A program made the translations under genes and the position numbers. Positions 1 through 27,230 of a DNA stretch of 27,554 nucleotides are shown here, one piece after another. This DNA is from a virus. The notes beneath the pieces are model-generated. The model was given only the letters and a program-made list of their open reading frames with translations, searched no databases and was not told where the DNA came from. The DNA is taken from positions 1 to 27,554 of the IMG/VR virus record IMGVR_UViG_3300025671_000406; one strand, 5' to 3'. Numbering within the stretch: the stretch's first letter is position 1; each line of letters begins with the position of its first letter.

Positions 1-561
1 TGGAAATCAATGCAAGCAGATGGTTTCTATAGAGATAAAAACGGTAAAACAATGGTACCTCTTATAATGTTTAAAAGAGATAGTTTTACTAAAAATAATA
101 CTTTAGGTAATAAATTAGACGGTAATAAAGTAAATAATATAGAATATTTTGAAACAGGATATTCTAAACGTAATGTTTATGACAATTTTGGGGTATTAAG
201 AAACCAAAAACCACAAAAAGAATATATCTTAGGCATAATCCCCGATTATTTAGATATTACATATACAATGTCTATTTTTACAGATTATGTAGAACAAGCA
301 AATGAAATTACCGAAGCAGTAGAATTTGCAGCTCGTTCATATTGGGGTGATCCTGAAAGATTTATGTTTAGAGCAGACATACAAACCTTTAATACACCTG
401 TTTTATTAGAAAACGGAAGTGATAGAGCAAATAAAACAACAATGAATGTTTTAGTTAACGGGTATATTATACCAAGTGGTATAAATGCAGCAATGGCAGG
501 ACCTAGTCCAAAGTCTTATGGTATAACTAAAACTATAATTAAAGAATCAATTATTACATAA
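1..561 (+). CDS. Tail-completion/neck-like virion protein (5' partial)
   Basis: The frame is open from base 1 (Trp-Lys-Ser before the first Met at base 10), so the gene begins left of the window; 186 codons and the stop are visible. The middle (roughly residues 80-120) has the pattern IIPDYLDITYTMSIFTDYVE, then a helix and 'SYWGDPERF', followed by an alternating beta-rich end with 'VNGYIIPSGIN'. This resembles the small T4-like proteins that cap or stabilise the head-proximal end of the tail (gp15/gp3-type), in which a 'P-x-M/L-x-F/Y' strand precedes a helix. That link is by general pattern only. Its place upstream of fibre, sheath and tube genes fits a structural role. It could be another conserved virion protein of marine T4-like phages. 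I am confident it is a real gene and only moderately sure of the role. Confidence 0.55.
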   Translation, partial: WKSMQADGFYRDKNGKTMVPLIMFKRDSFTKNNTLGNKLDGNKVNNIEYFETGYSKRNVYDNFGVLRNQKPQKEYILGIIPDYLDITYTMSIFTDYVEQANEITEAVEFAARSYWGDPERFMFRADIQTFNTPVLLENGSDRANKTTMNVLVNGYIIPSGINAAMAGPSPKSYGITKTIIKESIIT

Positions 562-566
562 AATAT

Positions 567-574
567 ATATTTAT
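567..574 (+). promoter_or_regulatory. ATATTTAT element upstream of the first fibre gene
   Basis: An exact ATATTTAT begins 5 bases after the preceding stop and ends 5 bases before the ATG at 580. It is one of the recurrent intergenic copies. The short distance to the start is unusual for a promoter in this set. Confidence 0.3.
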
Positions 575-579
575 TATAG

Positions 580-1203
580 ATGGCAACAATAAGTACAGTA
601 GGAATAGCAAGTGGTAGTTTAATTTACCCTGAACACGTTTTAAGAGCAATAGATGCATTAAATGGTGCTAGTGGCCCCTTTGATTTTGTTCTTTCTGGTT
701 CTTTAACTACCTCTGGAAGTATAAAATTACTTTCAGGAAGTTTACTTCCTAATCAAAACCCCATAGCATATTTAACATATAATACTTCTTCAGGGGATTT
801 AAATTTTTCTACAGGTAGTAATTTAGCAACTACTTCATCTCATGCTTTAAGTATAAAAAGTGGCTTAACAGCTTCATATGCTGATACTGCTACAAGTGCT
901 TCAATTGCAGATGAATTAAGTCAACTTGCAACTGCTAGTTTTGCTGATACTGCTACAAGTGCTTCTATAGCTACAAATGCAGATACTGCTTCAAATATTA
1001 ATAGTTATGGATCTGGTTCACATTCTGGTTCATTCTCAATTACTGGATCTTTATTTGTTACTGCCTCTCATGTATTAAACTTAGCCCCATCTAACCCCTT
1101 ACCTACAGCTGGTATAATACTGGGATCATTTGCAGTAACTGGTTCAGATTTAGCATATTATAACGGAATATCTTGGAAAAAAGTATCTACTGAAGACTTT
1201 TAG
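580..1203 (+). CDS. Short repeat-containing tail fibre-like protein
   Basis: A 207-residue protein rich in Ala, Ser, Thr and Gly. Residues 1-40 (MATISTVGIASGSLIYPEHV, then LRAIDALNGA) match the N-terminus of the collagen-like protein at 3594, so this is probably a shared attachment or assembly module. Residues about 85-135 hold repeats of the 'TASFADTATSASIA' type also found in the larger fibres at 5793, 7482 and 17957. The C-terminal part ends in a 'SDLAYYNGISWKKVS' strand pair typical of phage fibre ends. No enzymatic motif, signal peptide or membrane segment is visible. The role is inferred to be a virion fibre or decoration protein. The start is the only sensible ATG, 18 bases after the previous stop, and has no Shine-Dalgarno sequence. 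Confidence 0.7.
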   Translation: MATISTVGIASGSLIYPEHVLRAIDALNGASGPFDFVLSGSLTTSGSIKLLSGSLLPNQNPIAYLTYNTSSGDLNFSTGSNLATTSSHALSIKSGLTASYADTATSASIADELSQLATASFADTATSASIATNADTASNINSYGSGSHSGSFSITGSLFVTASHVLNLAPSNPLPTAGIILGSFAVTGSDLAYYNGISWKKVSTEDF

Positions 1204-1238
1204 TGGATTTTTATAAAAAGGTTATTATATTATAGGTT

Positions 1239-3551
1239 ATGAAAGTACAAGCTCATACGAGTTTTATAGGAACAACTGGGTATGCTAATCATGCCAAATC
1301 TTTCTTCACAGAATTAGACAAATTAACCCCAGTTAAAATACGAAATTTTACAGTAGGTAAAACTTGGAATGGTCCTAGTCAAACTCCTCATAATAACGAA
1401 CCATATATTACTCCGCAAATGAAAAAAATGCTTCATTTGCAAACTTTGTTTAATAATGATAATTCAAGAGAGGATTATCCTATATATTCATTTCAAAATG
1501 GTTATCAACCTGATATTGATATAGTATTAAATGAACACAATCATCATTATTTTTATGATGATTATAAAGGATATAAAATAGCATATAATGTTTGGGAATC
1601 AACTCGATATTCAGATGAATATTTTAATCAATTATTAAAATTTGATGAATTATGGGTACCAACAGAATGGCAAAAAGAAATATCCATTAAACAAGGATAT
1701 CCAGAAGATAAAATATTTGTTATACCTGAAGGTGTAGATGGAACTATATTTAAACCACCTTCTAGACCTAAAAAACAAGACAAATTTCAATTTGTTATAG
1801 TTGGAAGATGGGATTATAGAAAAGGTATAAAAGAAAGTATTGAGGGTTTTTTAAAATCATTCCCAAACAACTCAGATGTTGAATTATTATTAAATGTAGA
1901 AAATCCCTATCCTGTAGATGGTATGAATTCTACAGAGGAACGTTTAAAATACTATGGGCTAGAAGACGATAGAATAAAAATATTAAAATTTTTAGATAGA
2001 AAACAATATATTTCACTACTTCAAAATACTAATGTTTTAATTTCATGTGCTAGAGCAGAAGGTTGGAATTTACCTTTGATAGAAGCACTTGCTTGTGGTA
2101 CACCATCAATTTACACTAAATGTTCAGGCCAACTTGAATTTACAGAAGGTAAAGGATTAGGAGTAGAAATACTAGGAGAAGAACCTGCTACAAATGGGGC
2201 CGGTTTAACATTTGAACAAAATATACCCGGTAACTTCTACACTCCTGATTTAGATGATTTAGTTAAAAAGATAAAAGATTCATATGAAAATTATAACGAT
2301 TGGAAACAATGGCATTTAAAACGTTCTAAAGAAATACGTCAAGAATTTTCTTGGAAAAATCAAGCAAAAAAAGCATATAAACGTTTACAACAAATTAAAA
2401 TTAAACCTCAACTCCAATTACCCTATGTAGAGGTTAATTTTGTAGATGGTCCTTATGCTTGTTTAAAAAATGCCAATCAAACCTATAAAATAGATTTTAT
2501 AGATCAAGATACAGGTAAAAACGAATATTCAGTAGATTTACAAAATAATCATTGGAGTAAAACCTTTTTTAAATATTTTAAGAATTGGGATATACAAATT
2601 AAAGATCAATTTGATAATATTGTTAATTCCTATAAATACAATGCTGCAGGTAAACGCGTATATATTGCATTTGATTCCAAGTCATTGGGGGATACATTAG
2701 CTTGGTTTCCCTACGCTTTAGAATTTAAAAAGAAACATAATTGTCACGTAATAGTATCAACGTTCTGGGAAAAGTTTTTTAAAAATAAATATCCTGAACT
2801 TGAATTCGTAAAACCTGGTGAAACTGTACCTAATATATACGCTATGTATAAAATAGGATGGTTTTATGAGGATGGAACTGACAAATTAGACGGATTTCAA
2901 CAACCTCAGGATCCTAAATCTATTCCCTTACAACAAACTGCAACTAATATATTAGGGTTAGAATATCAAGAAATTATTCCACGAATGGACTATCAAGTTA
3001 AAGATAGACCCTTTAAGGAAAAATATATTTGTATTTCACCCCATGCTTCTGCGGGAACTAAATACTGGCACCACCCAACAGGATGGCAAACTGTTATAAA
3101 TTATATCAATAATGTTTTAGGATATAAAGTAGTAATGATATCTAAAGAAAAGTATAACAATGCTTGGGAAACAGATAAATTACCATTAAAGAAAAAATTC
3201 GAAAATATTATAGATGCTACAGGTGACCATCCTATAGAAGATATTATCAACATACTCCACCATTCAGAATTATACATTGGGGTATCAAGTGGTTTAGCCT
3301 GGTTATCTTGGGCAATTCAAAAACCTGTAGTAATGATATCAGGATTTAGTGCGGATTGGACTGAATTTACCACAAACATTCAGCGTATTATTAATAAAAA
3401 TGTTTGTAATTCTTGCTTTAATAATTATAAATTAGATGCTGGAGATTGGGATTGGTGCCCTGTACATAAAAATACTCCTAGGCAGTTTGAATGCACTAAA
3501 AAAATCCATCCAGAAACCGTGATAAAAGGTATTATTAACAGCTTTGGTTAA
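1239..3551 (+). CDS. GT4 glycosyltransferase fused to an autotransporter-heptosyltransferase-like (BAHT) glycosyltransferase
   Basis: A 770-residue cytoplasmic enzyme with two glycosyltransferase halves. Residues 1-390 are GT4/GT-B-like: an N-terminal 'HTSFIGTTGYANHAKSF' loop, 'VIVGRWDYRKGI' opening the donor domain near 185, and an E-x7-E pair at E274/E282 in 'AEGWNLPLIEALACGTPS'. Residues about 395-770 follow the bacterial autotransporter strand-loop-strand O-heptosyltransferase (BAHT, TibC-type) pattern: a beta-rich entry with 'NHWSKTFFKYF', 'FDSKSLGDTLAWFPYALEF' near 477, 'ISPHASAGTKYWHH', 'GVSSGLAWLSWA', and four cysteines C723, C726, C740 and C752 spaced like the iron-binding cysteines of TibC. 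Known BAHT enzymes transfer ADP-heptose-derived heptose to Ser in repeat-rich adhesins. Here the gene lies between two Ser/Thr-rich fibre genes, so those are the natural candidate acceptors; this is inference. The donor may differ in the phage. The second half is the firmer assignment. Confidence 0.85.
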   Translation: MKVQAHTSFIGTTGYANHAKSFFTELDKLTPVKIRNFTVGKTWNGPSQTPHNNEPYITPQMKKMLHLQTLFNNDNSREDYPIYSFQNGYQPDIDIVLNEHNHHYFYDDYKGYKIAYNVWESTRYSDEYFNQLLKFDELWVPTEWQKEISIKQGYPEDKIFVIPEGVDGTIFKPPSRPKKQDKFQFVIVGRWDYRKGIKESIEGFLKSFPNNSDVELLLNVENPYPVDGMNSTEERLKYYGLEDDRIKILKFLDRKQYISLLQNTNVLISCARAEGWNLPLIEALACGTPSIYTKCSGQLEFTEGKGLGVEILGEEPATNGAGLTFEQNIPGNFYTPDLDDLVKKIKDSYENYNDWKQWHLKRSKEIRQEFSWKNQAKKAYKRLQQIKIKPQLQLPYVEVNFVDGPYACLKNANQTYKIDFIDQDTGKNEYSVDLQNNHWSKTFFKYFKNWDIQIKDQFDNIVNSYKYNAAGKRVYIAFDSKSLGDTLAWFPYALEFKKKHNCHVIVSTFWEKFFKNKYPELEFVKPGETVPNIYAMYKIGWFYEDGTDKLDGFQQPQDPKSIPLQQTATNILGLEYQEIIPRMDYQVKDRPFKEKYICISPHASAGTKYWHHPTGWQTVINYINNVLGYKVVMISKEKYNNAWETDKLPLKKKFENIIDATGDHPIEDIINILHHSELYIGVSSGLAWLSWAIQKPVVMISGFSADWTEFTTNIQRIINKNVCNSCFNNYKLDAGDWDWCPVHKNTPRQFECTKKIHPETVIKGIINSFG

Positions 3552-3593: not shown

Positions 3594-5369
3594 ATGGCTG
3601 ATACAATTAGTACCTCGGGGATAGCTAGCGGTAGTATAATACGCGCTGATCATGTGTTAAGAATCACTGATGCCCTTTCTGCACAATCTACAAATGATAT
3701 ATATATTACAGGTTCTGTAGGAATTACAGGTAGTTTAAATCTTGATCCCGCTTCAACTCCCCAAACTGGATCTGGGTTTGAATGGATGCTTAGTTTTGAT
3801 ACAGGTAGTGGCCAAGTAGTATACTCACGCAGAAATTCAACATCAGGTACTTCAGGTACCTCAGGCTCAAGTGGTACTTCAGGTACTTCTGGTTCTTCGG
3901 GTACATCAGGTTCATCAGGTACTTCAGGTACTTCTGGTTCATCAGGTACTTCAGGATCAAGTGGTACATCTGGTAGTTCAGGTACTTCTGGCTCATCTGG
4001 TTCATCTGGTACATCTGGAACTAGTGGAGAAAAAGGAGGAGTTGAATATAATTTTGATACAAATACAGCTGATACTGATCCAGGTGCTGGTAAAATAGCT
4101 TACGATAATTCTACTATAGGATCAGTTACTAACATTTACATAGATAATACAGATCAAAGAGGTACAGATTTAACTGCTTGGTTTTCAACTTGGGACGATT
4201 CAAATAATGTCACAAATAAAGGAACTATAAGTCTTATAAGTAGAGACACAGGTAGTGTAGTAAATTTATTTACTGTTACAGGAGCTGCGACTGCTGCTTC
4301 TGGATATTACAAAATACCCGTTTCTTATGTAGCTGGAGCTTTAGCAGCAAATAACGCTCCTTTATCACTTGAATTTTCTAGAACAAGTGATGTAGGTACA
4401 TCTGGTACTTCAGGTTCTTCAGGCACATCCGGTTCTTCAGGTTCAAGTGGAACTTCAGGTTCAAGTGGAACTTCAGGTTCTTCTGGTACAGACGGTACTT
4501 CTGGTACAAACGGTACCTCTGGTTCATCTGGTACTTCTGGTTCATCAGGATCATCAGGTACTTCTGGAAGTTCAGGCACATCCGGTACTAGTGGTATAAA
4601 AGGAGGAATTGAATACAATTTTGATGATCAAACAGGACAAGCAGATCCAGGACCAGGTGTTATAAGATATGATAGTGCTACTATTGGTTCTGTAAATAAT
4701 TTATATATAGATAATTTAGATCAAACAGGAACAGATCAAACTGCATGGTTTGCTACTTGGGATGATTCAACTAATGATGTAGATAAAGGACAAGTTATTA
4801 TTTCAAATGCAGATAATACTCCTATAGCTAACGTATTTACAGTTACAGCTTCCGTCATAGCCGAATCAGGATATTATAGAATACCTGTAGATAATCTTAC
4901 AGGAACTTTACCTACTAGTGGATCTAAATTAGTATTAGCTTTCTCTAGGGCTGGAAATAATGGTACCTCAGGTACTTCTGGTGCTGTGACTCTTAAAGGT
5001 GGGACTACTGGATCTGTATTACTAAATACAGGAAATGTTTCAGCATATAGTGGTAGTGAAGGGTTTACATATGACACTTCAAATGACCAATTAACTATAT
5101 CATCCTCAGCAGATGTAACAGGATCATTAAACATAACAGGTTCAGTAATAATAACAGGATCTTTATTTGGTATAACACATAGAGAATCACTTGCAGGATC
5201 TTCAACATATAATATTGATCATAATTTAAATGAAGAATTTCCTATAGTACAAGTATATAGTGCTTCAAAAGAGCAAGTTATCCCAAGTTCAGTAAAATCA
5301 ACTTCTGTAAATCAAATCCAACTAGAATTTGTTGGTAATTTTACTGGAAGTGTAGTAATAATAAAATAA
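3594..5369 (+). CDS. Collagen-like Gly-Thr-Ser repeat fibre protein
   Basis: A 591-residue modular fibre. Residues 1-45 share the 'ADTISTSGIASGSIIRADHV' N-terminus with the protein at 580. Two Gly-X-Y blocks (about residues 84-144 and 268-333) consist almost only of GTS and GSS triplets. Each is followed by a copy of one globular module of about 120 residues: it begins 'KGGVEYNFD' or 'KGGIEYNFD', contains 'TAWFSTWDDS' or 'TAWFATWDDS', and ends 'LEFSR' or 'LAFSR'. The C-terminus has a 'YNIDHNLNEEFPIVQVYSAS' module related to four modules in the 1512-residue fibre. The Gly-X-Y pattern suggests a trimeric collagen-like rod. The repeats contain no proline, so they are poor prolyl hydroxylase substrates but dense in Ser/Thr for O-glycosylation, and the heptosyltransferase-like gene ends 42 bases upstream. 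No catalytic motif is seen. Confidence 0.8.
   Translation: MADTISTSGIASGSIIRADHVLRITDALSAQSTNDIYITGSVGITGSLNLDPASTPQTGSGFEWMLSFDTGSGQVVYSRRNSTSGTSGTSGSSGTSGTSGSSGTSGSSGTSGTSGSSGTSGSSGTSGSSGTSGSSGSSGTSGTSGEKGGVEYNFDTNTADTDPGAGKIAYDNSTIGSVTNIYIDNTDQRGTDLTAWFSTWDDSNNVTNKGTISLISRDTGSVVNLFTVTGAATAASGYYKIPVSYVAGALAANNAPLSLEFSRTSDVGTSGTSGSSGTSGSSGSSGTSGSSGTSGSSGTDGTSGTNGTSGSSGTSGSSGSSGTSGSSGTSGTSGIKGGIEYNFDDQTGQADPGPGVIRYDSATIGSVNNLYIDNLDQTGTDQTAWFATWDDSTNDVDKGQVIISNADNTPIANVFTVTASVIAESGYYRIPVDNLTGTLPTSGSKLVLAFSRAGNNGTSGTSGAVTLKGGTTGSVLLNTGNVSAYSGSEGFTYDTSNDQLTISSSADVTGSLNITGSVIITGSLFGITHRESLAGSSTYNIDHNLNEEFPIVQVYSASKEQVIPSSVKSTSVNQIQLEFVGNFTGSVVIIK
3843..4026 (+). repeat. Collagen-like Gly-Thr-Ser/Gly-Ser-Ser coding repeat, block 1
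   Basis: A degenerate 9-base coding period gives uninterrupted Gly-X-Y triplets with Thr or Ser at X and Ser at Y. Synonymous codons vary (tca, tct, agt; ggt, gga, ggc), so the repeat is maintained at protein level. Confidence 0.85.
4395..4592 (+). repeat. Collagen-like Gly-X-Y coding repeat, block 2
   Basis: Second run of mostly GTS/GSS triplets, with a GTDGTSGTNG variant in the middle. It and the following module repeat the architecture of block 1 and its module. Confidence 0.85.
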
Positions 5370-5792: not shown

Positions 5793-6995
5793 ATGGCAAG
5801 TTGGAAAAAAGTCATAGTATCGGGATCATCAGCTAATTTAGCTGACTTACAAGTTGATTCCCTCTCATCAGGTCTGGTTACTGGAAATTCAGGCAATTTA
5901 ACAACAACCGCAGTAAACGGTACAGGAAATATAGTAGCTACTACAGCCGCGGATGGTGTATCAATGAGTGGTTCCTTTAGTGGATCTTTTCAAGGTACAA
6001 TTGACGCTGATATTGCTTCTGCTTCTATAGCTGCTACAGCTGATACAGCTTCTGTAGCTTTAAGAGCAAATGCATTATCACCCTTAGCAACGGCATCATT
6101 TGCTTTAGTAGCAGGTACTGCTCGTAATGCTGATTCAGCTTCTGTAGCTGCAAGAGCAACCACACTATCTTCTGATGCAACAGCATCATTTGCCGATTTA
6201 GCTTCAGATGCTAGAACAGCCGATAGTGCTTCAGTAGCCGCTAGAGCAACTACACTATCTTCTGATGCAACAGCATCATTTGCTGATAGAGCTACAAGTG
6301 CTTCAATTGCAGACGAAATTTCACAACTTGCAACAGCTTCTTTTGCTGATAGTGCTACAACAGCTTCCCATGCCTTAGGTGGTGCTGGTTCATTTAGTGG
6401 TTCATTCCAAGGTGACGGTTCAGGATTGACAGGACTACCAGGAACCCTAACAGTAGATGGTGATACAGGAACACAAGATGTAGATTTAATTAATGATGAT
6501 CTACAAATACTTGGTACATCAGAGGAAATTGTAACAGCTGTAACAAAAGTAGGTAATGATGTTAAAGTAACATTAAGTTTACCAGATGACGTTACAATTG
6601 GAAATGATTTAACAGTTACTAATAATGCAACAATTGCTGGAGATTTAACAGTAGGTGGATCAATAGTTAGTGCTTCTTCATTAGCAGTTGAAGATCAATT
6701 TATTATCCTAGCATCAGGTTCAAATGGCCCAATTGATGGTGGTATTATTATTAACCAAGTTGATGATGATCCAGATGGTAAAGGTGTTGCCTTAGCATAT
6801 GATTCAAGTGCAAATAGATGGGCATTACAAACAGGTTTAAATGATACAGCCTCTGTAATTACACCAGATGCACATTTAGGTGTTATTCAAGAAGCAGCAG
6901 GTACCCCTAGTTCCGATCCAGTATATGGTGGAACTGCCGGTAAAGGTACTATTTATGTAAATACCTCTAATGACGAAATTTATATTTATTCTTAA
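5793..6995 (+). CDS. Tail fibre protein with Ala/Ser/Thr solenoid-like repeats
   Basis: A 400-residue fibre. It starts 'MASWKKVIVSGSSANLADLQ', close to 'MPNWKKLIVSGSDASLNSLE' of the 1512-residue fibre, which suggests the same assembly or attachment site. Residues about 50-195 carry 'GSFSGSFQG' and repeats of the 'ADSASVAARATTLSSDATASF' type. The C-terminal half (about 230-400) is a beta-rich region with 'DVTIGNDLTVTNNATIAGDL', a hexapeptide-like pattern of a triple-stranded beta fibre shaft, then 'DQFIILASGSNG' and a terminal 'GTIYVNTSNDEIYIYS'. These are hallmarks of trimeric phage fibres. No intramolecular chaperone or enzymatic domain is evident. The protein is very likely a virion component; its exact position in the particle is unknown. 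Confidence 0.75.
   Translation: MASWKKVIVSGSSANLADLQVDSLSSGLVTGNSGNLTTTAVNGTGNIVATTAADGVSMSGSFSGSFQGTIDADIASASIAATADTASVALRANALSPLATASFALVAGTARNADSASVAARATTLSSDATASFADLASDARTADSASVAARATTLSSDATASFADRATSASIADEISQLATASFADSATTASHALGGAGSFSGSFQGDGSGLTGLPGTLTVDGDTGTQDVDLINDDLQILGTSEEIVTAVTKVGNDVKVTLSLPDDVTIGNDLTVTNNATIAGDLTVGGSIVSASSLAVEDQFIILASGSNGPIDGGIIINQVDDDPDGKGVALAYDSSANRWALQTGLNDTASVITPDAHLGVIQEAAGTPSSDPVYGGTAGKGTIYVNTSNDEIYIYS
6001..6370 (+). repeat. Ala/Ser/Thr-rich fibre repeat array
   Basis: Two to three near-identical copies of a unit encoding 'ADSASVAARATTLSSDATASFAD', with shorter 'TASFADSATTASHA' units. The same units recur in the fibres at 7482 and 17957. Confidence 0.7.
6982..6989 (+). 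promoter_or_regulatory. ATATTTAT element upstream of a small conserved gene
   Basis: Exact ATATTTAT inside the last codons of the fibre gene, 25 bases before the ATG at 7015. This matches the 24-25 base spacing seen before the sheath, baseplate and 17957 genes. Confidence 0.4.
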
Positions 6996-7481: not shown

Positions 7482-10400
7482 ATGCCAAACTGGAAAAAAC
7501 TCATTGTCAGTGGTTCTGACGCCTCTCTAAATTCCTTAGAGGTAAACCAAGCCTCAGGTTCATTCTCGGGCTCGTTTCAAGGTGACGGTTCGCAATTAAC
7601 AGGTATAACTGTTGATGCAGCTACTACGGTAGAAGATTCTTTTACTTCCCAAACCTCAATATCAATCACACACAATTTTGAAACTAAAAATATAATAGTT
7701 TCTGTGTACAATAGTGATGATGAACAAATCATCCCTCAATCTGTTACAACAACAACTAATAATACGGTTGATATAGTCTTTCAATCTGCAACTTCAGGTA
7801 GAGTAGTAGTAGTAAGAGGAGGACATATTTTATCAGGTTCTGCAGCAACCGCTTCATTAGCTTTAGAATTAAGTAATTTAGCTACTGCTTCATTCGCTAT
7901 AACTGCATCACATGCTCTAAATATACCTGATACTGCATCTCATGCTTTAACAGCCGTAACATCTTCCATTGCAGACGAATTATCACAATTAGCAACAGCT
8001 TCTTTTGCAAATAATGCTACAAGTGCTTCATATGCATTATATGCAGTATCTGCCTCACATGAAATTGTATTAGAAACATCATCATCCTTTGCTGAAACAG
8101 CTTCTTTAGCTATTAACTTATCCCCAGAAGCTACAGCTTCTCAGGCAGATAATGCTACTACAGCTAGTTTTGCTATTACTGCTTCACATGCCCTAAATGT
8201 ACCTGCAACATCATCTCATGCTTTAACAGCAGTAAGTGCTAGTATTGCAGATGAATTATCACAATTAGCAACAGCTAGCTTTGCAATAACTGCTTCACAT
8301 GCTTTAAATGTACCTGATACAGCTTCCCACGCATTAACAGCGGTAACAGCCTCACACACAGCAGGCACAGCTTCAATAGCAAACAATGCAGTTACTGCAT
8401 CAAATATCAACCCTCTAACCCAAGATGTATCTATAACAGGTTCTCTATCAGTAAGTGGAAATGTCCAATTTGCAGATATATTAGGTGTTGCTAATGAAAT
8501 AGTAATGGTAGGAAGTAATAATAGCATTACTTCTTCTAATATAATTTCTTTAGATCCTACTAATAATTACCTTGGTATAAATCAACCAAACCCAGAAGTT
8601 ACACTTCATATGACGGGTGATGGTGCACAAACTGCTCAAATTAGAATGGAGCAGTATAATGATAGTTCAGATGCACCTGATATTAGAACAAGAAAAGCTA
8701 GAGGTACTTCAGCATCACCTGCAAAAAATAATGCTGGTGATTTTATATACAGACAAAATTCTGAAAGGTATAATGGTTCAACATATACCACAGTAGGTCA
8801 ATTTGCAGTAGATGCAAATAGCTCAAATGCAGATAGATTCCAACTTACTTTGGCAGTTAGTGAAGATGGTAATACAATCGATGCTGCTGCTGCACAATTT
8901 AAGATTGATGGTAATGATGGTGGTGCGATTACTTTTAACGATGCATATAAGTTTCCAACGTCAGACGGAACATTAGGTCAAACACTTATTACAAATGGTA
9001 GTGGTGTTCTTTCTTTTGGAACCGTATCAACAGCATCTCATGCTTTAACAGCTGTAACAGCTTCACATGCTCTTAACGTACCAGATACCTCATCATTTTC
9101 ATTAAATGCAGATTCTGCTTCAGTAGCTGCTCGTGCAACAACATTAAGTGCTGACGCAACAGCATCAATAGCAGATAGAGCTACAACATCATCATTTGCC
9201 GACCTTGCAGGAAATTCACGTAATGCTGATTCTTCCTCAGTTGCTGCAAGAGCTACTACTTTAAGTGCTGATGCTACAGCATCTATAGCCGATAGAGCTA
9301 CTACAGCATCTTTTGCAGACTTAGCTGGAGATGCCAGAACAGCAGATAGTGCTTCTGTTGCTGCAAGAGCTACAGAATTAAGTGCAGATGCAACTGCCTC
9401 ATTTGCCGATAGAGCAACAAGTGCTTCAATTGCAGACGATATTAAAGATGGTGCTGTAACAAATGCTAAATTAGTTAACGATAGTATAACATTAGGTACC
9501 ACAGAAGTTACTTTAGGTACAACAATTGGTACGCTTAGTGGTTTAGATGCTATTAGTGCAACTACAGGTACATTTGTATTACAAATTTACGAATCCTCTT
9601 CTACAATCATCACTTCAGGATCAAATATTTTTGGTAATGATCAGAATGATATACAACAAATTACTGGTTCATTAAAACAATCAGGAAGTTATACACTTTC
9701 AGGAAGTTTATTGCAATCAAACGGAACAATTAGTGGTTCATTTGAAGGTAATGGTTCAGGATTAACAGGAATAACAGCTGATTCAGCCGATTCATCTTCA
9801 GTAGCAGCTCGTGCTACTACTTTAAGTACTGATGCTACAGCAAGTTTTGCTTTAGTAGCTGGGACTTCAAGAAATGCAGATAGCGCTTCAGTTGCGGCCC
9901 GTGCTACTGAATTAAGTACAGACGCTACTGCCTCATTTGCTGATTTAGCAAGTAATGCAAGAACATCCGATAGTGCTTCTGTTGCTGCAAGAGCAACTGA
10001 ATTATCAGCTGATGCAACAGCATCATTCGCCGACTTAGCTTCAGACGCTAGAACAGCCGATAGTGCCTCAGTAGCATCTCGTGCTACTACTTTAAGTGCA
10101 GATGCTACAGCTTCCCACGCGTTAACAGCGGTAACAGCCTCACACACAGCAGGCACTGCTTCAATATCTAACTACGCTACAAGCGCTTCATTTGCCATAA
10201 CTGCTTCATATTTACTTGGTGGAGCTGGCAACTCAGGATCCTTTAGTGGTTCATTTCAAGGAGATGGTTCAGAATTAACAGGTATAACGGTTGATGCATC
10301 TACTTTAGTTAATGCTACTTTTACAAGTCAAACTAGCCTTACAGCATCACACGAATTAGATTCTACTAATTTAATTATTACTGTATTTAACACTGATAAT

Positions 10401-12020
10401 GAAGTTCTTATACCTGAAAATATAAGAATATTAGATAATAGCAATGTAGGGTTTGATTTTGCTACTTCAACTTCAGGTAAATATGTTTTAGCAAAAGGAG
10501 GACATATAGTTAGTGGATCCATTACTACTACTGTATCAGAACAAACTACAGTAACAGCTTCATTTGTTGACCAAACAAGTTACACAGCATCACATGCTTT
10601 TGAAAGCAAAGATGTTAATGTTATAATTTATGGTGTTAATGATGAATTATTAATTCCACAAACCATAAAAACTCTTAATAGCAGTTCAGTAGGAGTAGAT
10701 TTTGCAGAATCTACTTCAGGTAGAATTGTAATAACTAAAGGTGGACATTTTGTATCAGGATCTATAGCTTCTGCTTCTATTGCGGATGTTGCTACTTTAG
10801 CAAGAGCAGGTTCAGGATCCTTTAGTGGATCATTCCAAGGTGATGGTTCGAATTTAACAGGTGTTGCTTCACCTACAGGTTCATTTAGTGGTTCTTTTAC
10901 AGGTAGTATACTTGTCTCAGATCATATTTTACCTACTTCTAATGAAGCATACGATTTAGGGTCACCAGATAAAAAGTTTAGAGATTTATATTTAAGTGGA
11001 TCTACAATTTATTTAGATGATGTAGCCTTATCTAAAAACACAGATGGAAACTTAGAAGTTAAAGATAGTAATGGTAATTTTAAAAGTATTAGAGCTGATG
11101 AAGTTATCATAGGAAATGGAGAGAATGCTACTCGACTTAAAATAAATAATGGTAGATTAAGTGCAATTAATAAAGATGATTCAAGAGAAGAAAGCATAGA
11201 ATTAGCAATTTCATCCTCATTTTCAGAAACCTCTTCTTTATCATTGTCATCATCTTATGCTATAACAGCATCCTATGTTTTAAATGCAGATAGAGCAACA
11301 AGTGCCTCAATAGCAGATGAATTATCTCAATTAGCAACCGCTTCATTTGCTTTAACAGCATCCCATGCTTTAAATGGTGGTGGAGGTAATTCAGGATCAT
11401 TTAGTGGTTCATTTCAAGGAGATGGTAGTAGTTTAACGGGTATAGTAGCAAGCGTAGTTTCTGAAAGTATAGCTGCTGATTCGTTTACTAGTCAAACTAG
11501 TTATACTGCTTCCCATAATTTTGGTACAAAAGAAGTAGTTGTTCAAGTTTATGACAATAATGATAATGTAATTGTTCCTTCAAATATAAGAGCAATAACA
11601 GATAATGCTGTAGGATTAGATTTTGCATCCTCAAGAACAGGAAAAGTAATAATATCTAAAGGAGGTCATATTGTAACAGGTAGTGTTATAGCAACAGCTT
11701 CTGTAGCAGAAGGTCTTTCACCAAGTGCACAAAGACAATCTGTTGTACTTGCTACATCTGATTTTACAGGATCTTTTTATTCTTTGCATATAATATCATC
11801 TAGTTTATCTATGTCAGCACCCCCAACTCCTCAACCCGGAGATTGGTTTAAAATATCACAACGTGTTCCTAGTGGATCTAATTTTACTTCCTCACTGTTA
11901 TTTGGAAATGGGTCACAAATTATGTCATCTTCAACTGAACTAGAATTAGATGTTGAAGATCAAGGTATTGAATTTATTTATGCAGATGCAACACAAGGAT
12001 GGGTAATAATAGGAAACTAA
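7482..12020 (+). CDS. Long tail fibre protein, 1512 residues
   Basis: The largest gene of the window and the likely main fibre subunit. The N-terminus 'MPNWKKLIVSGSDASLNSLE' resembles that of the 400-residue fibre. The body alternates three module types: (1) 'GSFSGSFQGDGSxLTGI' hinges; (2) Ala/Ser/Thr repeats such as 'TASHALNVPDTASHALTAV' and 'ADSASVAARATTLSADATAS'; (3) four copies (about residues 49-118, 939-1010, 1026-1095, 1333-1400) of a beta module with the pattern 'SQTSYTASHNF...VxVYDNNDNVIVPSNI...KGGHIVTGS'. Near 1135-1200 lies 'TSNEAYDLGSPDKKFRDLYL', a common fibre-shaft motif. The C-terminus has 'PPTPQPGDWFKISQRVPSGS' and ends 'FIYADATQGWVIIGN', a beta-rich tip found at the ends of marine phage fibres. 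No catalytic residues are evident. It is probably a homotrimer in the virion. Confidence 0.85.
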   Translation: MPNWKKLIVSGSDASLNSLEVNQASGSFSGSFQGDGSQLTGITVDAATTVEDSFTSQTSISITHNFETKNIIVSVYNSDDEQIIPQSVTTTTNNTVDIVFQSATSGRVVVVRGGHILSGSAATASLALELSNLATASFAITASHALNIPDTASHALTAVTSSIADELSQLATASFANNATSASYALYAVSASHEIVLETSSSFAETASLAINLSPEATASQADNATTASFAITASHALNVPATSSHALTAVSASIADELSQLATASFAITASHALNVPDTASHALTAVTASHTAGTASIANNAVTASNINPLTQDVSITGSLSVSGNVQFADILGVANEIVMVGSNNSITSSNIISLDPTNNYLGINQPNPEVTLHMTGDGAQTAQIRMEQYNDSSDAPDIRTRKARGTSASPAKNNAGDFIYRQNSERYNGSTYTTVGQFAVDANSSNADRFQLTLAVSEDGNTIDAAAAQFKIDGNDGGAITFNDAYKFPTSDGTLGQTLITNGSGVLSFGTVSTASHALTAVTASHALNVPDTSSFSLNADSASVAARATTLSADATASIADRATTSSFADLAGNSRNADSSSVAARATTLSADATASIADRATTASFADLAGDARTADSASVAARATELSADATASFADRATSASIADDIKDGAVTNAKLVNDSITLGTTEVTLGTTIGTLSGLDAISATTGTFVLQIYESSSTIITSGSNIFGNDQNDIQQITGSLKQSGSYTLSGSLLQSNGTISGSFEGNGSGLTGITADSADSSSVAARATTLSTDATASFALVAGTSRNADSASVAARATELSTDATASFADLASNARTSDSASVAARATELSADATASFADLASDARTADSASVASRATTLSADATASHALTAVTASHTAGTASISNYATSASFAITASYLLGGAGNSGSFSGSFQGDGSELTGITVDASTLVNATFTSQTSLTASHELDSTNLIITVFNTDNEVLIPENIRILDNSNVGFDFATSTSGKYVLAKGGHIVSGSITTTVSEQTTVTASFVDQTSYTASHAFESKDVNVIIYGVNDELLIPQTIKTLNSSSVGVDFAESTSGRIVITKGGHFVSGSIASASIADVATLARAGSGSFSGSFQGDGSNLTGVASPTGSFSGSFTGSILVSDHILPTSNEAYDLGSPDKKFRDLYLSGSTIYLDDVALSKNTDGNLEVKDSNGNFKSIRADEVIIGNGENATRLKINNGRLSAINKDDSREESIELAISSSFSETSSLSLSSSYAITASYVLNADRATSASIADELSQLATASFALTASHALNGGGGNSGSFSGSFQGDGSSLTGIVASVVSESIAADSFTSQTSYTASHNFGTKEVVVQVYDNNDNVIVPSNIRAITDNAVGLDFASSRTGKVIISKGGHIVTGSVIATASVAEGLSPSAQRQSVVLATSDFTGSFYSLHIISSSLSMSAPPTPQPGDWFKISQRVPSGSNFTSSLLFGNGSQIMSSSTELELDVEDQGIEFIYADATQGWVIIGN
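9100..9440 (+). repeat. Ala/Ser/Thr-rich fibre repeat array
   Basis: Three tandem copies of a roughly 30-residue unit, each running from 'ADSASVAARATTLSADATAS' (or 'ADSSSVAARATTLSADATAS') to the next 'AD'. Copies differ mainly at synonymous positions. Confidence 0.75.
9775..10160 (+). repeat. Ala/Ser/Thr-rich fibre repeat array
   Basis: Four tandem copies of the same unit as at 9100-9440, leading into 'TASHALTAVTASHTAGTASI', which also occurs near 8320-8380. Confidence 0.75.
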
Positions 12021-18735: not shown

Positions 18736-19368
18736 ATGGCTTCAGCAGCATTTGGCTTACAGTTAATTCAAGTACCAACACCTAGTCCAACTCCTAGTCC
18801 AACACCTAGTCCATCTCCTACTCCAACACCTAACCCAACACCATCACCTACTCCTACACCTGCAACTCCTGCACCAACACCTACACCAACACCTAACCCA
18901 ACACCAACACCTACACCTGCAACACCTGCACCTACTCCTACACCTGCAATACCTACGCCAACACCTACACCCGCAACTCCTGCACCAACACCCACTCCTG
19001 CTGTTCCTGCACCAACACCTAACCCAACACCTACACCCGCAACTCCTGCACCAACACCCACTCCTGCTGTTCCTGCACCAACACCAACACCCAACCCTAC
19101 ACCTACACCTACACCAACACCAGCAGCACCAACTTGTACACCGGCTTCTGTATTTTATGGCAACTCAGGTACTGCTGCATGTAACTCTAATTCAAGATAT
19201 ACTGTATATAACCCCGAGGGAGATAGTGGCCCTGTAGCTAATGGTGTTCCTATTTATAGCAATAGTACTTGCAATAATCCTGCTCCTTCAAGATGGTATG
19301 CTGATTTATATGGAATTTATGGTTATTGGAATGGAAATAACTGGAGTTTTGAAGGATTATGTTTCTAA
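18736..19368 (+). CDS. Extensin-like Pro-Thr-Pro repeat virion-like protein
   Basis: A 210-residue protein in three parts. Residues 1-13 ([13 protein letters not shown]) are short and mildly hydrophobic, not a clear signal peptide. Residues 14-132 are almost only Pro, Thr, Ala, Ser, Val and Asn, in 'PTPTP', 'PSPTP', 'PATPAP' and 'PAVPAP' units. Residues 133-210 form a small domain with four cysteines and aromatic clusters, ending '[15 protein letters not shown]'. The Pro-Thr-Pro stalk would form an extended polyproline II rod and resembles plant extensins and arabinogalactan proteins, in which prolines are hydroxylated and glycosylated. A prolyl-hydroxylase-like gene begins 68 bases downstream, followed by a GT60-like gene, so this is the prime candidate substrate. 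The Cys domain may be a binding head. The substrate claim is inference; the repeat structure is directly visible. Confidence 0.75.
18775..19131 (+). repeat. Pro-Thr-Pro coding repeat
   Basis: 119 codons of short-period proline repeats. Within it a 22-residue unit is tandemly duplicated: 18958-19019 and 19024-19085 are identical over 62 bases with a 66-base period. Such recent duplication implies the stalk length can change. Confidence 0.9.
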
Positions 19369-19436
19369 AATATTAAAAAATAAAAAAAAGTTTGGTTTAT
19401 TAAAAAATTTATGTTATATTATTAAAAAACAGTTTT

Positions 19437-20765
19437 ATGGTTAAAAAAGTAAAAGATTTTGTTAGTAAGGAAGAGTGTAAAAGCCTTATAAAATTGATTA
19501 AAAAAAATAATCAAAAATCTACAGTTGTAAACAATGATAACGAAAATCCTGTGTTTGCCTCTGAATACAGGAATTCTAGTACTTCACATCTAGATCCTAG
19601 TAATCCTTTAGTACATGAAATTCACCAAAGAATTGCAGACTATTTAGGAGTAGACATTAAAAAAGGTGAACACCTTCAAGGTCAATTATACGAACCAGGA
19701 GAATACTTTAAAGAACATTATGACTGGTTTTCTGAAGGAGAAAGTTATGATCAAAATTGTCTTCATTCAGGTCAAAGAACTCATACTTTTATGATCTACC
19801 TAAATGAACCTAAAAAAGGTGGTAAAACTAAATTTCCTAAATTAAATAAAGAATTTAAAGCTAAAAAAGGAACGGCTTTACATTGGCTTAATATGCAGCA
19901 TGGAAGAGTTGTAGACGAAGTAATGCATGAAGGAGCTGAAGTAAAAAAAGGAAAAAAATATATAATTACTGCTTGGTTTAGAGAAAATGACTTTGATGGT
20001 AGAAAAGATTCTCAATTATATATAGATAAAAAAGAAGGTAAAACTACTAAAAAAAGAAAACCAACAGCTAAAAAACCAACAGCTAAAAAACCAACAGCTA
20101 AAAAACCTACAGGAATTACTCAATTTACTCATGAAAATGAATTGCCTAGACTTACAAAAACTGGATTTACAGTTGTAAAAACCCCAGAGCATGTATTTAA
20201 ACTAATTCAGGAAGCTTATTTTTTATTAAAACCAACATTACAAGAAGAAGTTTTTGAAGGTAAAGAACATATTATTAGAAAAGTATCAGATGCAGAACAA
20301 AGTTCTAGTGATTTATTAGACCTTAGTCAAACTCCAACTATAAGAACAATAATTCATGATGCCTTAAAACCAATCCATGAAGATTTTATAAAAAATAAAG
20401 AAGAAATAGAACCTAGTGCGGTTTATGGTATTCGTTCTTACAATAAAGGAGCTGTTCTTGCAAATCATGTAGATAGAATAGCTACACATCATGTATCTTC
20501 TATTATTATTGTTGATAAAGATATTAAGTGTAAAACATGTAAAAAAGGTAAAAAGAAGGGTAAGAAAAAACAGGATTGGCCACTTCAAATCCAAGCCCAC
20601 GATGGAACTTGGCATGATGTTTATGCAAAACCTGGTGAAATGATTCTATATGAATCCGCTATTTGCAAACATGGTAGGGAAATACCATTTAGAGGAAAAT
20701 ATTTTAGAAATTTTTACGTACACTATAAACTAAAAAATTGGGAGTATGTCGGAAACGAGCAATAA
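19437..20765 (+). CDS. Two-domain prolyl 4-hydroxylase-like Fe(II)/2-oxoglutarate oxygenase
   Basis: A 442-residue enzyme with two oxygenase domains. Domain 1 (about 1-190) has the P4H signature: 'GEYFKEHYDWF' with H94 and D96, 'MIYLNEPKKGGKTKFP', 'KKGTALHWLN', and H164 with K174 in 'MHEGAEVKKGKKYIITAWF'. The H-x-D...H and the Lys ten residues after the distal His match the iron and 2-oxoglutarate ligands of collagen P4H. A Lys-rich linker (about 200-225) holds 'PTAKK' repeats. Domain 2 (about 225-442) has 'YGIRSYNKGAVLANHVDRIA' (H344, D346), a Lys/Cys-rich insertion near 361-380, 'GEMILYESAICKHGREIPF' (H412), and 'GKYFRNFYVHYKL'; it resembles a second family of 2-oxoglutarate oxygenases. Expected reaction: hydroxylation of peptidyl proline in the cytoplasm. 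It follows the Pro-Thr-Pro protein and overlaps the next gene by 20 bases. Confidence 0.85.
   Translation: MVKKVKDFVSKEECKSLIKLIKKNNQKSTVVNNDNENPVFASEYRNSSTSHLDPSNPLVHEIHQRIADYLGVDIKKGEHLQGQLYEPGEYFKEHYDWFSEGESYDQNCLHSGQRTHTFMIYLNEPKKGGKTKFPKLNKEFKAKKGTALHWLNMQHGRVVDEVMHEGAEVKKGKKYIITAWFRENDFDGRKDSQLYIDKKEGKTTKKRKPTAKKPTAKKPTAKKPTGITQFTHENELPRLTKTGFTVVKTPEHVFKLIQEAYFLLKPTLQEEVFEGKEHIIRKVSDAEQSSSDLLDLSQTPTIRTIIHDALKPIHEDFIKNKEEIEPSAVYGIRSYNKGAVLANHVDRIATHHVSSIIIVDKDIKCKTCKKGKKKGKKKQDWPLQIQAHDGTWHDVYAKPGEMILYESAICKHGREIPFRGKYFRNFYVHYKLKNWEYVGNEQ
20061..20111 (+). repeat. 15-base tandem repeat encoding PTAKK
   Basis: Three exact copies of CCAACAGCTAAAAAA and a partial fourth, encoding a Pro-Thr-Ala-Lys-Lys linker between the two oxygenase domains. 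The exactness suggests recent slippage expansion. Confidence 0.9.
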
Positions 20766-22650
20766 GATTTTTGCTTCGATTGTTTCCTACGGTGATTTAG
20801 ATATAGTTCCTACAGTACGAGATTTACTCCAAAAAGCATCTCACCCAGAAAACATATTCGTAGTAGTATTTAGACAATCTACTCCTGACCATGATATATC
20901 AGCGATTAGATATTTAGACAATGTTTTAGTTATTGATTGTCTTTATAATAAATCCAAAGGTGTAGTATGGGCACATAGTAATATTGTACCCTCTTTAGAT
21001 CCTGGATTTAAGTATTGGTTAATGGTGGATTCACATACTCGATTTGATGAAGGATGGGATGATCTTTGTATACAAAATTTACAGGAATTACCTCCTAAAT
21101 CATTAATTAGTGTTTATGCTCCACAGTATTTTTTATCTCGAGAAGAAAAATCTAAAGGATTTCAAGTTAATTATGCTCACGAATTAAACCCTGATGGTAG
21201 TGTACATTGGGGAGCTAAACTAGTTGAAGATGGACATAATATAGAAGCATTTAAAAATTCTAGTATAGCAGGAGGACTTATGTTTTCCCCTATAGAATTA
21301 ATGGATGAAGTACCCATTGACCCTTATCTAAATTATCAGTTACAAGAAACTGATCAAACTATTAGAGCTTTTACTCACGGATGGAATATGTATGCTCCTA
21401 AATTTGATGGAGCTATTTATCACATTTATGAGCGTACTACAAGAATGTGCCCTAATGGGAATGATGGAGGTAGAGGACTTAACCCTGTAAAAAGATACCA
21501 TTATAAATTAGGTATATTAGGTAGAGAAGATTTAAATGATAATGATGTCTTTAGACTAGATCAGTATGGATTAGGAACTGTAAGAACAGTTAAAGAATTT
21601 GAAGAAACTTATAATATAAAACTATATACTAGGGAAGAAGTTTTAGCTAAACAAGGAGAACCTATAACTCCTTATGTAGGAACTTTATCTCCCCATATTA
21701 GTGATTCTTCTTCTACAGAAACTACAGTATCACCAACCTCAACCCAAAAGGTAATTTCAATTCCTGTAGCAGTATTTAATGATCATTTTCGTTTCCAATT
21801 AGATTTATTTTGGTATCACCATAAAAGATTATATGGAGATGATGCTCAAAATATGTGCCATGCTATTGTCCTTAGTAGGAACCACTATACGGATATGCCT
21901 GCTGCTGATATAACTCCCTGGAGTAATGTTGATCCTCATTTTAAAGATCTACCCCATTCTATGTGTAAAGCCTACTTTGATTACAACCCTGAATGGTTTC
22001 AAAAGAATTTAATGCAAACTAACATTCAAATTGGTTTACAACAAATTATAGATAAATTTAATGATGATGATGTAGTTGAAATATTAGATTGTGATATGTT
22101 CCATATGGAAAAACGTCCTCCTTTAGATGTTAAAGATGATGAAGTATATGTTGCAACTGATTATGAAAAATGGCATTTACATTCTAAAACAATTAATAAG
22201 TTTATTATAGAAAGATACCTCCATAAAACAGGAGGAGATTATAATGGAGGATTTGTACCTATTATTTGTAATGTAAGAACCCTTAAAAAAATAATGACTG
22301 AGTGGTTAGCAGTTAATTTAGATATAATTGAACAACCAATAACAGACGGGTTAAAATGGTGGTCTTCAATGTATGCTTTACAAGCTGCTTGTGAGAAGAA
22401 CATGGTAAAAATGATTGAGTATAATAAATGTTATATTCAAAATATTAACGAATGGAAAGATGATATGTACATTTGCCATTATTCATGTGATGGAGTTTAT
22501 ATTCATAAAAATGATAAAGAACATTTGTACTCTTATGAAAATTATTTAAAATGCAAAAACTCAGATTTTAAATACCCTAAATTATTTGCTGAGTGGTATG
22601 CACAAAGTGCATTTTGGAATACAAATAAACAAGAAGGATGGGAAAAATAG
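20746..22650 (+). CDS. Skp1-type GlcNAc-transferase-like (GT60) enzyme fused to a second glycosyltransferase
   Basis: A 634-residue protein. Residues 1-320 fit the UDP-GlcNAc:polypeptide GlcNAc-transferase family (Pfam GlcNAc, GT60): 'IFASIVSYGDLDIVPTVRDL' at the start, 'SKGVVWAHSNIV', 'YWLMVDSHTRFDEGWDD' with the D95-S96-H97 metal motif, 'SIAGGLMFSPIELMDEVPID', and 'TIRAFTHGWNMYAPK'. The best-known member, Dictyostelium/Toxoplasma Gnt1, transfers GlcNAc to hydroxyproline of Skp1. A Ser/Thr linker (about 320-345) leads to the second half (about 350-634) with 'FRFQLDLFWYHHKRLYGD', D448-x-D450 in 'LDCDMFHME', 'GGDYNGGFVPIICNV' and 'DGLKWWSSMYALQAAC'. This layout recalls plant hydroxyproline arabinosyl-/serine galactosyltransferases (HPAT/SERGT), but only loosely. 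The start overlaps the hydroxylase stop by 20 bases. The GT60 call is strong; the second domain is tentative. Confidence 0.82.
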   Translation: MSETSNKIFASIVSYGDLDIVPTVRDLLQKASHPENIFVVVFRQSTPDHDISAIRYLDNVLVIDCLYNKSKGVVWAHSNIVPSLDPGFKYWLMVDSHTRFDEGWDDLCIQNLQELPPKSLISVYAPQYFLSREEKSKGFQVNYAHELNPDGSVHWGAKLVEDGHNIEAFKNSSIAGGLMFSPIELMDEVPIDPYLNYQLQETDQTIRAFTHGWNMYAPKFDGAIYHIYERTTRMCPNGNDGGRGLNPVKRYHYKLGILGREDLNDNDVFRLDQYGLGTVRTVKEFEETYNIKLYTREEVLAKQGEPITPYVGTLSPHISDSSSTETTVSPTSTQKVISIPVAVFNDHFRFQLDLFWYHHKRLYGDDAQNMCHAIVLSRNHYTDMPAADITPWSNVDPHFKDLPHSMCKAYFDYNPEWFQKNLMQTNIQIGLQQIIDKFNDDDVVEILDCDMFHMEKRPPLDVKDDEVYVATDYEKWHLHSKTINKFIIERYLHKTGGDYNGGFVPIICNVRTLKKIMTEWLAVNLDIIEQPITDGLKWWSSMYALQAACEKNMVKMIEYNKCYIQNINEWKDDMYICHYSCDGVYIHKNDKEHLYSYENYLKCKNSDFKYPKLFAEWYAQSAFWNTNKQEGWEK

Positions 22651-23390
22651 AAAAAACAGCCTATATTACAGGTATAACCGGTAATTTTACTAAAACTAAT
22701 CCTATAGAAGAGGATTTAAGAGGACAATCTTATGTCTATACTACTAGAAAAAGTAAAGCATTTAAAAAGAATGCTGAATCTAATGGGTGGGAAGTAAGAT
22801 ATTTAGATCATTTAGAACATACTACTAATCTAGTTAAAGCTTCTATCCAATCTAAAGATGTTAAATTTTGTAAATTTGATTTAGATAGTGAAAAACCCTT
22901 ATGGGAAGAATATGATTATATTTTATATGCAGATCATAAGTTTATTTTTACTAAAAAACAAATTGAAAGTTTAGTTGATTTTATAGATGACGAAAAACAT
23001 GTTTGTGCAGTAGGAGAACAGGGATCTAATGTGTTTACAGAATTTTTCTGTGCTACAGCTTATACTCGTTATGTTAAAGTAATGGATGAAATGAGAAAAA
23101 ACATTGATTACTATATCGAAAATAGAAGTTGGGAATACTGTATGCAAGAAGATAAGCCTATGGCTAATATGAGTTATGTTTTATGGAATACAAAACATCC
23201 TAAATTTAGATTTTTAGTAGATAAATTAAATGAAGAACAAGAAAAATTTCAACATCCTGAATGTCAAATCCTTTTTACTTTGTTTATGAACGACCATCAA
23301 GATTTAATCCAAATACAACCGGGACATTCTCTTATTGGTCATTTAGAAAGAGTAATTCCTGAACCTTTAATTGGTCATAAGCATTATTAA
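22638..23390 (+). CDS. Putative small glycosyltransferase (DUF616/TOD1-like fold, tentative)
   Basis: A 250-residue cytoplasmic protein overlapping the previous gene by 13 bases. It starts 'KTAYITGITGNFTKTNPIEE' and then 'GQSYVYTTRKSKAF', 'NGWEVRYLDHLE', 'DVKFCKFDLDSE' and 'EYDYILYADHKFIFTKKQIE', followed by Trp, His and Gln motifs near 'HPECQILFTLFMND'. The order (Rossmann-like strand with Gly, Y-V-Y-T-T, G-W-x-V, K-x-x-K-F, then a Y-D-Y-I-x-x-A-D-H metal-like site) resembles DUF616/TOD1/MUCI70-type glycosyltransferase-like proteins. I see no exact D-x-D. Being sandwiched between glycosyltransferase and sulfotransferase genes supports a sugar-modifying role. It could also be a nucleotide-sugar enzyme. 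Low certainty beyond that. Confidence 0.5.
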   Translation: MGKIEKTAYITGITGNFTKTNPIEEDLRGQSYVYTTRKSKAFKKNAESNGWEVRYLDHLEHTTNLVKASIQSKDVKFCKFDLDSEKPLWEEYDYILYADHKFIFTKKQIESLVDFIDDEKHVCAVGEQGSNVFTEFFCATAYTRYVKVMDEMRKNIDYYIENRSWEYCMQEDKPMANMSYVLWNTKHPKFRFLVDKLNEEQEKFQHPECQILFTLFMNDHQDLIQIQPGHSLIGHLERVIPEPLIGHKHY

Positions 23391-23392
23391 AA

Positions 23393-26744: not shown

Positions 26745-27230
26745 ATGGCAGTAAAAGATCCCAATGAAATAATGTTCACCGCCTTTGAACCAAAGGTACA
26801 AAATAGGTTTATTCTTTATGTAGATGGTATTCCATCATACTTAATAAAGAATGCCTCTGCTCCCGGATTCGATGCTGGTGAAATCATCCTAGATCATATT
26901 AACGTATACCGTAAAATTAAAGGTAAAGTACGTTGGAACGATATGACATTAGGTTTATATGACCCCGTAACCCCCTCTGGAGCTCAAGCCGTAATGGAAT
27001 GGGCACGTCTAGCTCACGAATCAGTAACTGGTCGTGACGGATACTCAGATTTCTACAAAAAAGATCTACAATTAGATATATTAGGTCCTGTAGGAGACGT
27101 GGTTTCTCAATGGATAATCAAGGGAGCATATTGTAAAACTGCCACATTTGGTGAATACGATTGGAGCGCTGATGCTGCAATTAATTTAGATATCACCATT
27201 GCAATGGATTATTGTATCCTAAACTTTTAA
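26745..27230 (+). CDS. Tail tube protein (T4 gp19-like)
   Basis: A 161-residue tube subunit (T4 gp19 is 163). 'FEPKVQNRFILYVDGIPSYL' at 15-34, 'SAPGFDAGEIILDHINVYRK' with 'GKVRWNDMTLGLYDPV', 'AVMEWARLAHESVTGRDGYS', 'KKDLQLDILGPVGDVVSQW' and the terminal 'LDITIAMDYCILNF' follow the gp19-like family strand order closely. Subunits form stacked hexamers that make the inner tube through which DNA passes. It follows the sheath gene at 32 bases and is followed by a rho-independent terminator, in keeping with very high late expression. Assigned with high confidence. Confidence 0.95.
   Translation: MAVKDPNEIMFTAFEPKVQNRFILYVDGIPSYLIKNASAPGFDAGEIILDHINVYRKIKGKVRWNDMTLGLYDPVTPSGAQAVMEWARLAHESVTGRDGYSDFYKKDLQLDILGPVGDVVSQWIIKGAYCKTATFGEYDWSADAAINLDITIAMDYCILNF

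Follow-up and report, generated by a model that had tools for sequence, protein, structure and literature searches.

What does a glycosyltransferase gene of the kind that decorates bacterial adhesins do within the fibre gene block of an aquatic phage? The window, by which we mean the whole 27,554-base IMG/VR virus record analysed here (probably part of a longer genome), contains such a gene. An initial annotation had read it as a GT4 domain fused to an autotransporter-heptosyltransferase-like (BAHT, TibC/AAH-type) half. The gene was found in the position and frame given there, as a single open reading frame (Table 1), and profile searches recovered both halves of the fusion. Residues 401-765 match the NCBIfam equivalog TIGR04414 (hepto_Aah_TibC) with 310.9 bits (E 1.1e-92), while the curated cut-off of this model is 200 bits, and a phmmer search matched the TibC structures 4rb4/4rap in the PDB over residues 401-768 (E 2.8e-54). 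The N-terminal half matches the Pfam GT4 models Glycos_transf_1 (PF00534, 8.3e-13) and GT4-conflict (2e-10), as well as PHROG 2170 across residues 8-385 (E 2.9e-37). The comparison with TibC proposed earlier also held at the level of the fold: an AF2 model (mean pLDDT 86.6) found TibC as its best PDB match in Foldseek (E 5e-30, TM 0.82 over the target), with low confidence in the iron-finger loop, where residues 733-737 have a pLDDT below 50.

Table 1. Features of the fusion gene, its fibre neighbours and the tail genes (window positions)
Feature	Position	Strand	Basis
Upstream fibre, 207 aa, Ser/Thr/Ala-rich, candidate acceptor	580..1203	+	sequence
GT4-BAHT fusion glycosyltransferase, whole gene	1239..3551	+	770 aa, one ORF; 236 related viral loci
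GT4 glycosyltransferase domain, residues 1-390	1239..2408	+	Pfam GT4 matches, PHROG 2170
GT4 EX7E pair E274/E282	codons 2058-2060, 2082-2084	+	invariant in 47 homologues
BAHT-derived domain, residues 396-770	2424..3548	+	TIGR04414, TibC alignment, Foldseek TM 0.82
D485 (TibC D110)	2691-2693	+	TibC alignment
K608 (TibC K230)	3060-3062	+	TibC alignment
Region of the TibC beta-hairpin thumb, ~residues 636-651	3144..3191	+	alignment
Ile669 where TibC has Arg286 (adenine reader)	3243..3245	+	TibC alignment
W688 (TibC W305)	3300-3302	+	TibC alignment
Iron-finger motif C723, C726, C740, C752	3405..3494	+	aligns with TibC Cys339/342/358/370
Collagen-like fibre, 591 aa, best candidate acceptor	3594..5369	+	PF01391 1.9e-15
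Collagen-like run 1, fibre residues 85-150, Gly-Thr/Ser-Ser repeats	3846..4043	+	sequence
Collagen-like run 2, fibre residues 268-339	4395..4610	+	sequence
Fibre, 400 aa, possible acceptor	5793..6995	+	sequence
Large Ser/Thr/Ala-repeat fibre, 1512 aa, possible acceptor	7482..12020	+	sequence; structural PHROG matches
Contractile tail sheath	24949-26712		
Tail tube	26745-27230		

The residues on which catalysis depends in TibC are conserved. There, Asp110 is the base, Thr226 and Lys230 are assigned to the phosphate and Trp305 to the heptose O4, while Cys339, Cys342, Cys358 and Cys370 are the Fe3+ ligands (PMC4358343). Across 47 full-length phage fusions D485, K608, W688 and the cysteines C723, C726, C740 and C752 are invariant, and so are R190, K195, E274 and E282 in the GT4 half. 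When 68 viral and 8 bacterial BAHT domains were compared, the catalytic Asp, Lys and Trp proved universal (68/68 viral), the position of Thr226 was Thr or Ser in all 68 viral domains, and the four cysteines, which form a predicted metal site, were present in 67 of them. The TibC-like spacing previously noted for these cysteines is borne out, since they align to the Fe3+ ligands at a spacing of 3/14/12, compared with 3/16/12 in TibC.

However, two features of TibC have been lost. Arg286 contacts the adenine N1 of ADP-heptose and the beta-hairpin thumb is needed for the dodecamer (PMC4358343). An Arg at the former position was found in 3/68 viral versus 8/8 bacterial domains. The thumb segment is swapped for an unrelated insertion in the 770-aa protein and deleted in most relatives, and its Trp267 is kept in one of the 68 viral domains versus seven of the eight bacterial ones. 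Because the thumb is lost, a TibC-like dodecamer ring is not expected for the phage enzyme. Since the catalytic site is intact, yet the adenine-reading Arg and the ring-forming thumb are gone, we file the protein, on its sequence, as BAHT-derived and not as an autotransporter heptosyltransferase; a two-step protein O-glycosyltransferase role is plausible. Consequently, the former designation stands as far as family, Cys4 motif and catalytic residues are concerned, but not for Arg286, the thumb and the acceptor repeats (TIGR04415) discussed below. A fusion homologue on a Pacearchaeota MAG contig (NZDU01000051.1, 997-3348) combines Arg286 and thumb with a lack of the iron-finger cysteines; this contig runs on into further sugar-biosynthesis genes.

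The identity of the sugar is affected as well. A search of 22 viral records, many of which are incomplete, yielded neither GmhA nor a true HldE; with Arg286 gone, this makes a heptose donor doubtful and leaves the label 'heptosyl' unsupported. Self-supply of ADP-heptose was rejected, as GmhA is absent and matches to RfaE domain II fall far under the cut-off. A 'cytidylyltransferase' near the gene of Microcystis phage Mel-JY01 was likewise discarded as a heptose gene, as it lacks any heptose-family match. A near-complete relative of 166 kb (G595), whose fusion shares 80% identity, encodes a GDP-mannose dehydratase, more epimerase/dehydratase genes, an aminotransferase, a GT10 match and an APS kinase, a set that fits a non-ADP donor. 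These GDP-sugar genes were not accepted as proof of the donor, because G597 has a similar cluster although the fusion was not detected in this relative. G595 further carries, at about 13-15 kb and 29-48 kb (L219-L227), a tryptophan-halogenase-like gene and a large nucleotide-sugar/surface-modification cluster.

The idea of a single novel phage enzyme has to be modified. Related loci number 236 in IMG/VR, and nearly all of the 80 that were kept are full-length fusions. Searches of the open-access literature turned up no report of a phage BAHT. Among annotated phage records, Mel-JY01 alone is matched across 80% or more of the query, and in three records of uncultured huge phages the match lies at the BAHT half; on plasmids no match spanned 80% of the fusion. 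The bacterial BAHTs examined are unfused (four from Alphaproteobacteria have open frames of 412-499 aa), and in the tree a branch with 100/100 support separates viral from bacterial BAHT domains. Besides the GT4 fusions, viral BAHT domains occur alone or joined to methyltransferase, GT2 or PIG-L domains, and several of these proteins retain the Arg286 equivalent. Such a range, in which BAHT stands alone or with varied added domains (GT4, methyltransferase, PIG-L), is what one would expect if the BAHT domain were to attach the first sugar. Some phages possess two BAHT genes, often in tandem (L019, L033, L034; G619, G622, G634). Acquisition from Bacteroidota was rejected, as 0/296 genomes from this phylum, that of Brumimicrobium, have a BAHT above the cut-off. 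Cellular fusions were dismissed too: those found are metagenome-bin contigs, of which L084 and L087 bear phage sheath or collagen-like fibre genes, although divergent cellular fusions may have escaped this genome scan because its patterns were taken from the GT4 half only.

Within the window, the enzyme gene lies 35 bp downstream of one fibre gene (580..1203) and 42 bp upstream of another (3594..5369). The N-termini of both fibres resemble each other, and the first 75-80 aa of the upstream one are conserved within the window clade. The Ser/Thr-rich flanking fibres of the initial annotation are present, and the downstream one bears two collagen-like runs with proline-free repeats (GTSGTSGSSG...). 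Compared by eye, the C-terminus of the 5793..6995 fibre resembles that of the structural protein beside the Mel-JY01 enzyme. The nearest isolate sheaths are those of the Flavobacterium phages immuto (53.5%) and of Mel-JY01 (52.6%), and in a large clade the enzyme gene adjoins the tail sheath and tube genes. An acceptor of the autotransporter type had to be abandoned: the neighbouring fibres are not strand-loop-strand repeats, and the acceptor-repeat model TIGR04415 gave no match in five fibre/repeat ORFs of the window at E up to 5, while its positive control, the partner of a Paraburkholderia BAHT, yielded 20 repeats. The gene's neighbours show no general excess of S/T/G/A (P 0.28). On the minus strand of the fibre block, ORFs with repeats rich in Pro/Glu/Val or Ala (e.g. 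4325-4618) are shadows of the Gly-Ser-Thr/Ala-Ser repeats and unlikely to be genes.

A second, accessory cassette is found in the same window (18736-24626). It comprises a Pro/Thr-rich (PTPTPSP) repeat protein, a prolyl-hydroxylase-type 2OG-Fe(II) oxygenase (PF13640) and a GlcNAc-transferase (PF11397, E 4.5e-37) whose C-terminus weakly matches hydroxyproline O-arabinosyltransferase (PF23452, under the cut-off), together with a PIG-L deacetylase, a possible sulfotransferase and one unknown ORF. The cassette, which elsewhere occurs only in the near-identical contigs L140/L141, resembles a hydroxyproline O-glycosylation set next to its substrate.

The link to collagen-like fibres extends beyond this window. 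Viral contigs were selected blindly, solely by a DNA pattern encoding GTSGSSGTSGSSGTS, and records of 27 kb or more were then searched over their full length with TIGR04414, with random 15-mer contigs as control. BAHT was detected in 23/41 and 13/24, together 36/65, of the Ser-collagen contigs and in 0/24 random ones (Fisher P 2.8e-7, an approximate value because of near-duplicate records and a random set of other phage type and habitat). Records of at least 60 kb gave 20/27 versus 0/8 (P 2.7e-4), and 13 of the 14 Ser-collagen records of at least 100 kb encode BAHT; many of the 29/65 records without it are fragments. In the blind contigs, repeat and gene are a median of 8.7 kb apart, a distance that is only weakly short (P 0.03-0.055). 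In near-complete records (G595; Mel-JY01, 190 kb; G603; G601), most or all of the collagen-like runs are found close to the gene. Seen from the enzyme, 39/87 BAHT loci, mostly partial, have no collagen-like run in the stretch examined, and some BAHT phages have Pro-rich collagen instead, with Ile, Gln or Thr at Y. Pro-rich collagen was rejected as a clean contrast, since 4/9 of its records have BAHT, three of them from one lineage. In sheath-anchored stretches collagen runs occur in 7/7 with BAHT and 0/21 without, which we do not use as the main test because BAHT and collagen may both be located beyond its ends (L163 and L164 are examples). G597 was discarded as a negative control: its contig starts only ~6 kb before the sheath and the fibre block is therefore largely missing.

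The composition of the Gly-X-Y repeats is in line with such a link. Over six lineages, Ser occupies 73-91% of the Y positions and Thr at most 3%, and X can be either Thr or Ser; only BAHT-anchored loci are informative on this bias, because the blind contigs were selected by a pattern in which Y is already Ser. TibC acts on Ser and not on Thr, and BAHT is a family of protein-Ser glycosyltransferases (PMC4358343). Thus, Ser fixed at Y is the pattern expected of a BAHT acceptor, while repeat expansion could contribute to it. In Mel-JY01 (L082, PP395634.1), the minus-strand hypothetical protein WWT39287 annotated at 739-2298 looks like a repeat shadow: the plus strand holds a long Gly-Ser/Thr collagen-like fibre frame, at about 1-3050 of the record, that adjoins the GT4-BAHT gene.

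Taken together, we favor, with a probability of roughly 0.58, a bifunctional O-glycosyltransferase for serines of the phage's own collagen-like fibres. In the mechanism that we infer, the C-terminal BAHT-derived domain would place the first sugar on fibre serines, most likely those of the neighbouring proline-free Gly-(Thr/Ser)-Ser segments, and the fused GT4 domain would add a second sugar after this step and so extend the glycan. Its donor is probably not ADP-heptose, as the adenine-reading Arg is lost, and a GDP- or UDP-activated sugar appears likelier. With the ring-forming thumb gone, the enzyme would probably be a monomer or a back-to-back dimer. The sugars might stabilise or shield the proline-less fibres, comparable to the cuticle collagen of a vent worm. 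One might even speculate, with more doubt than confidence, that this reflects a general system of proline-free phage collagen. A BAHT switched from ADP-heptose to another donor (e.g. a GDP-sugar) would then glycosylate the Y-Ser of Gly-X-Ser, and the sugar would, in many aquatic and jumbo phages, stand in for hydroxyproline as the stabiliser of fibre triple helices.

Another acceptor on the virion is conceivable: the Ala/Ser/Thr-repeat fibres (580-1203, 5793-6995, 7482-12020) or a different structural protein might be modified instead of the collagen-like segments. These fibres are Ser/Thr-rich and belong to the same gene block, the sheath and tube genes adjoin the enzyme gene in the large clade mentioned above, and some phages have the enzyme without Ser-collagen in the stretch examined. 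However, the blind co-occurrence concerns the Ser-collagen repeat, the fibre type that was examined, and we regard this acceptor as unlikely. Still less probable is an action on the O-antigen or capsule of the host cell, which might serve to prevent superinfection, as proposed for fibre-region glycosyltransferases of marine T4-like phages. While this has been published for glycosyltransferases of pelagimyophages (PMC7029224) and clusters of cyano-jumbophages (PMC7824862), and G595 does carry nucleotide-sugar genes, it fits poorly with a protein-Ser glycosyltransferase family (PMC4358343) whose iron finger and catalytic site are intact and which tracks a fibre type. A true ADP-heptose BAHT acting on an autotransporter adhesin of the host during infection would agree with the TIGR04414 score above cut-off and the conserved catalytic residues. 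Yet Arg286 and thumb are lost, TIGR04415 gave no match in the window fibres searched, the viral records searched, many of them partial, yielded no GmhA or true HldE, and none of the 296 genomes of the Brumimicrobium phylum reaches the cut-off, which makes this very improbable. Glycosylation of modified bases in phage DNA, common among phage glycosyltransferases (summarised in PMC12619734), is hardly credible for a member of a protein O-glycosyltransferase family encoded in a fibre block and associated with collagen-like fibres.

Returning to the fibre-modifying enzyme that we favor, it is a widespread new variant of the BAHT-type enzymes with a specific link to collagen-like phage fibres. BAHT-type adhesin glycosyltransferases are not known from phages in the literature searched, while hundreds of viral loci encode them and track one fibre type. 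If the enzyme does glycosylate collagen-like fibres, this would explain how phages can make Gly-X-Y fibres without proline or hydroxyproline. It would also offer an alternative reading of fibre-locus glycosyltransferases, which are usually ascribed to LPS modification, as in the interpretation given for marine phages (PMC7029224), and make the enzyme a compact candidate tool with which repeat proteins might be glycosylated specifically at Ser. Since Mel-JY01 is an isolate, the question is directly testable by virion glycoproteomics.

Compared with known systems, the enzyme shares with TibC of ETEC and AAH (TIGR04414) the fold, the catalytic Asp/Lys/Trp, the four-Cys iron finger and a place next to repetitive Ser-rich surface fibres. 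It differs in being GT4-fused, phage-borne and devoid of Arg286 and thumb, and its neighbours are collagen-like and other fibres instead of strand-loop-strand autotransporters. Phage-encoded glycosyltransferases that modify the phage's own virion structural proteins are described for mycobacteriophages (Freeman et al. 2023, cited in PMC12619734); as summarised there, they act on capsid and tail-tube C-termini, with no BAHT or collagen-like fibre reported. In the cuticle collagen of the vent worm Riftia, according to Mann et al. 1996 as cited in PMC6953826, glycosylated Thr stabilises Gly-X-Y triple helices in place of hydroxyproline. This is Thr in an animal collagen, whereas the phage fibres have Ser fixed at Y and would be glycosylated there. 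The counterpart in Mel-JY01, WWT39291 (annotated as 'methyltransferase FkbM'), likewise unites GT4 and BAHT in one protein (TIGR04414, 317 bits), and its gene adjoins a Gly-Ser/Thr collagen-like ORF as in the window, but it holds ~430 aa, apparently including a methyltransferase-like domain, between GT4 and BAHT and reaches 1226 aa in total.
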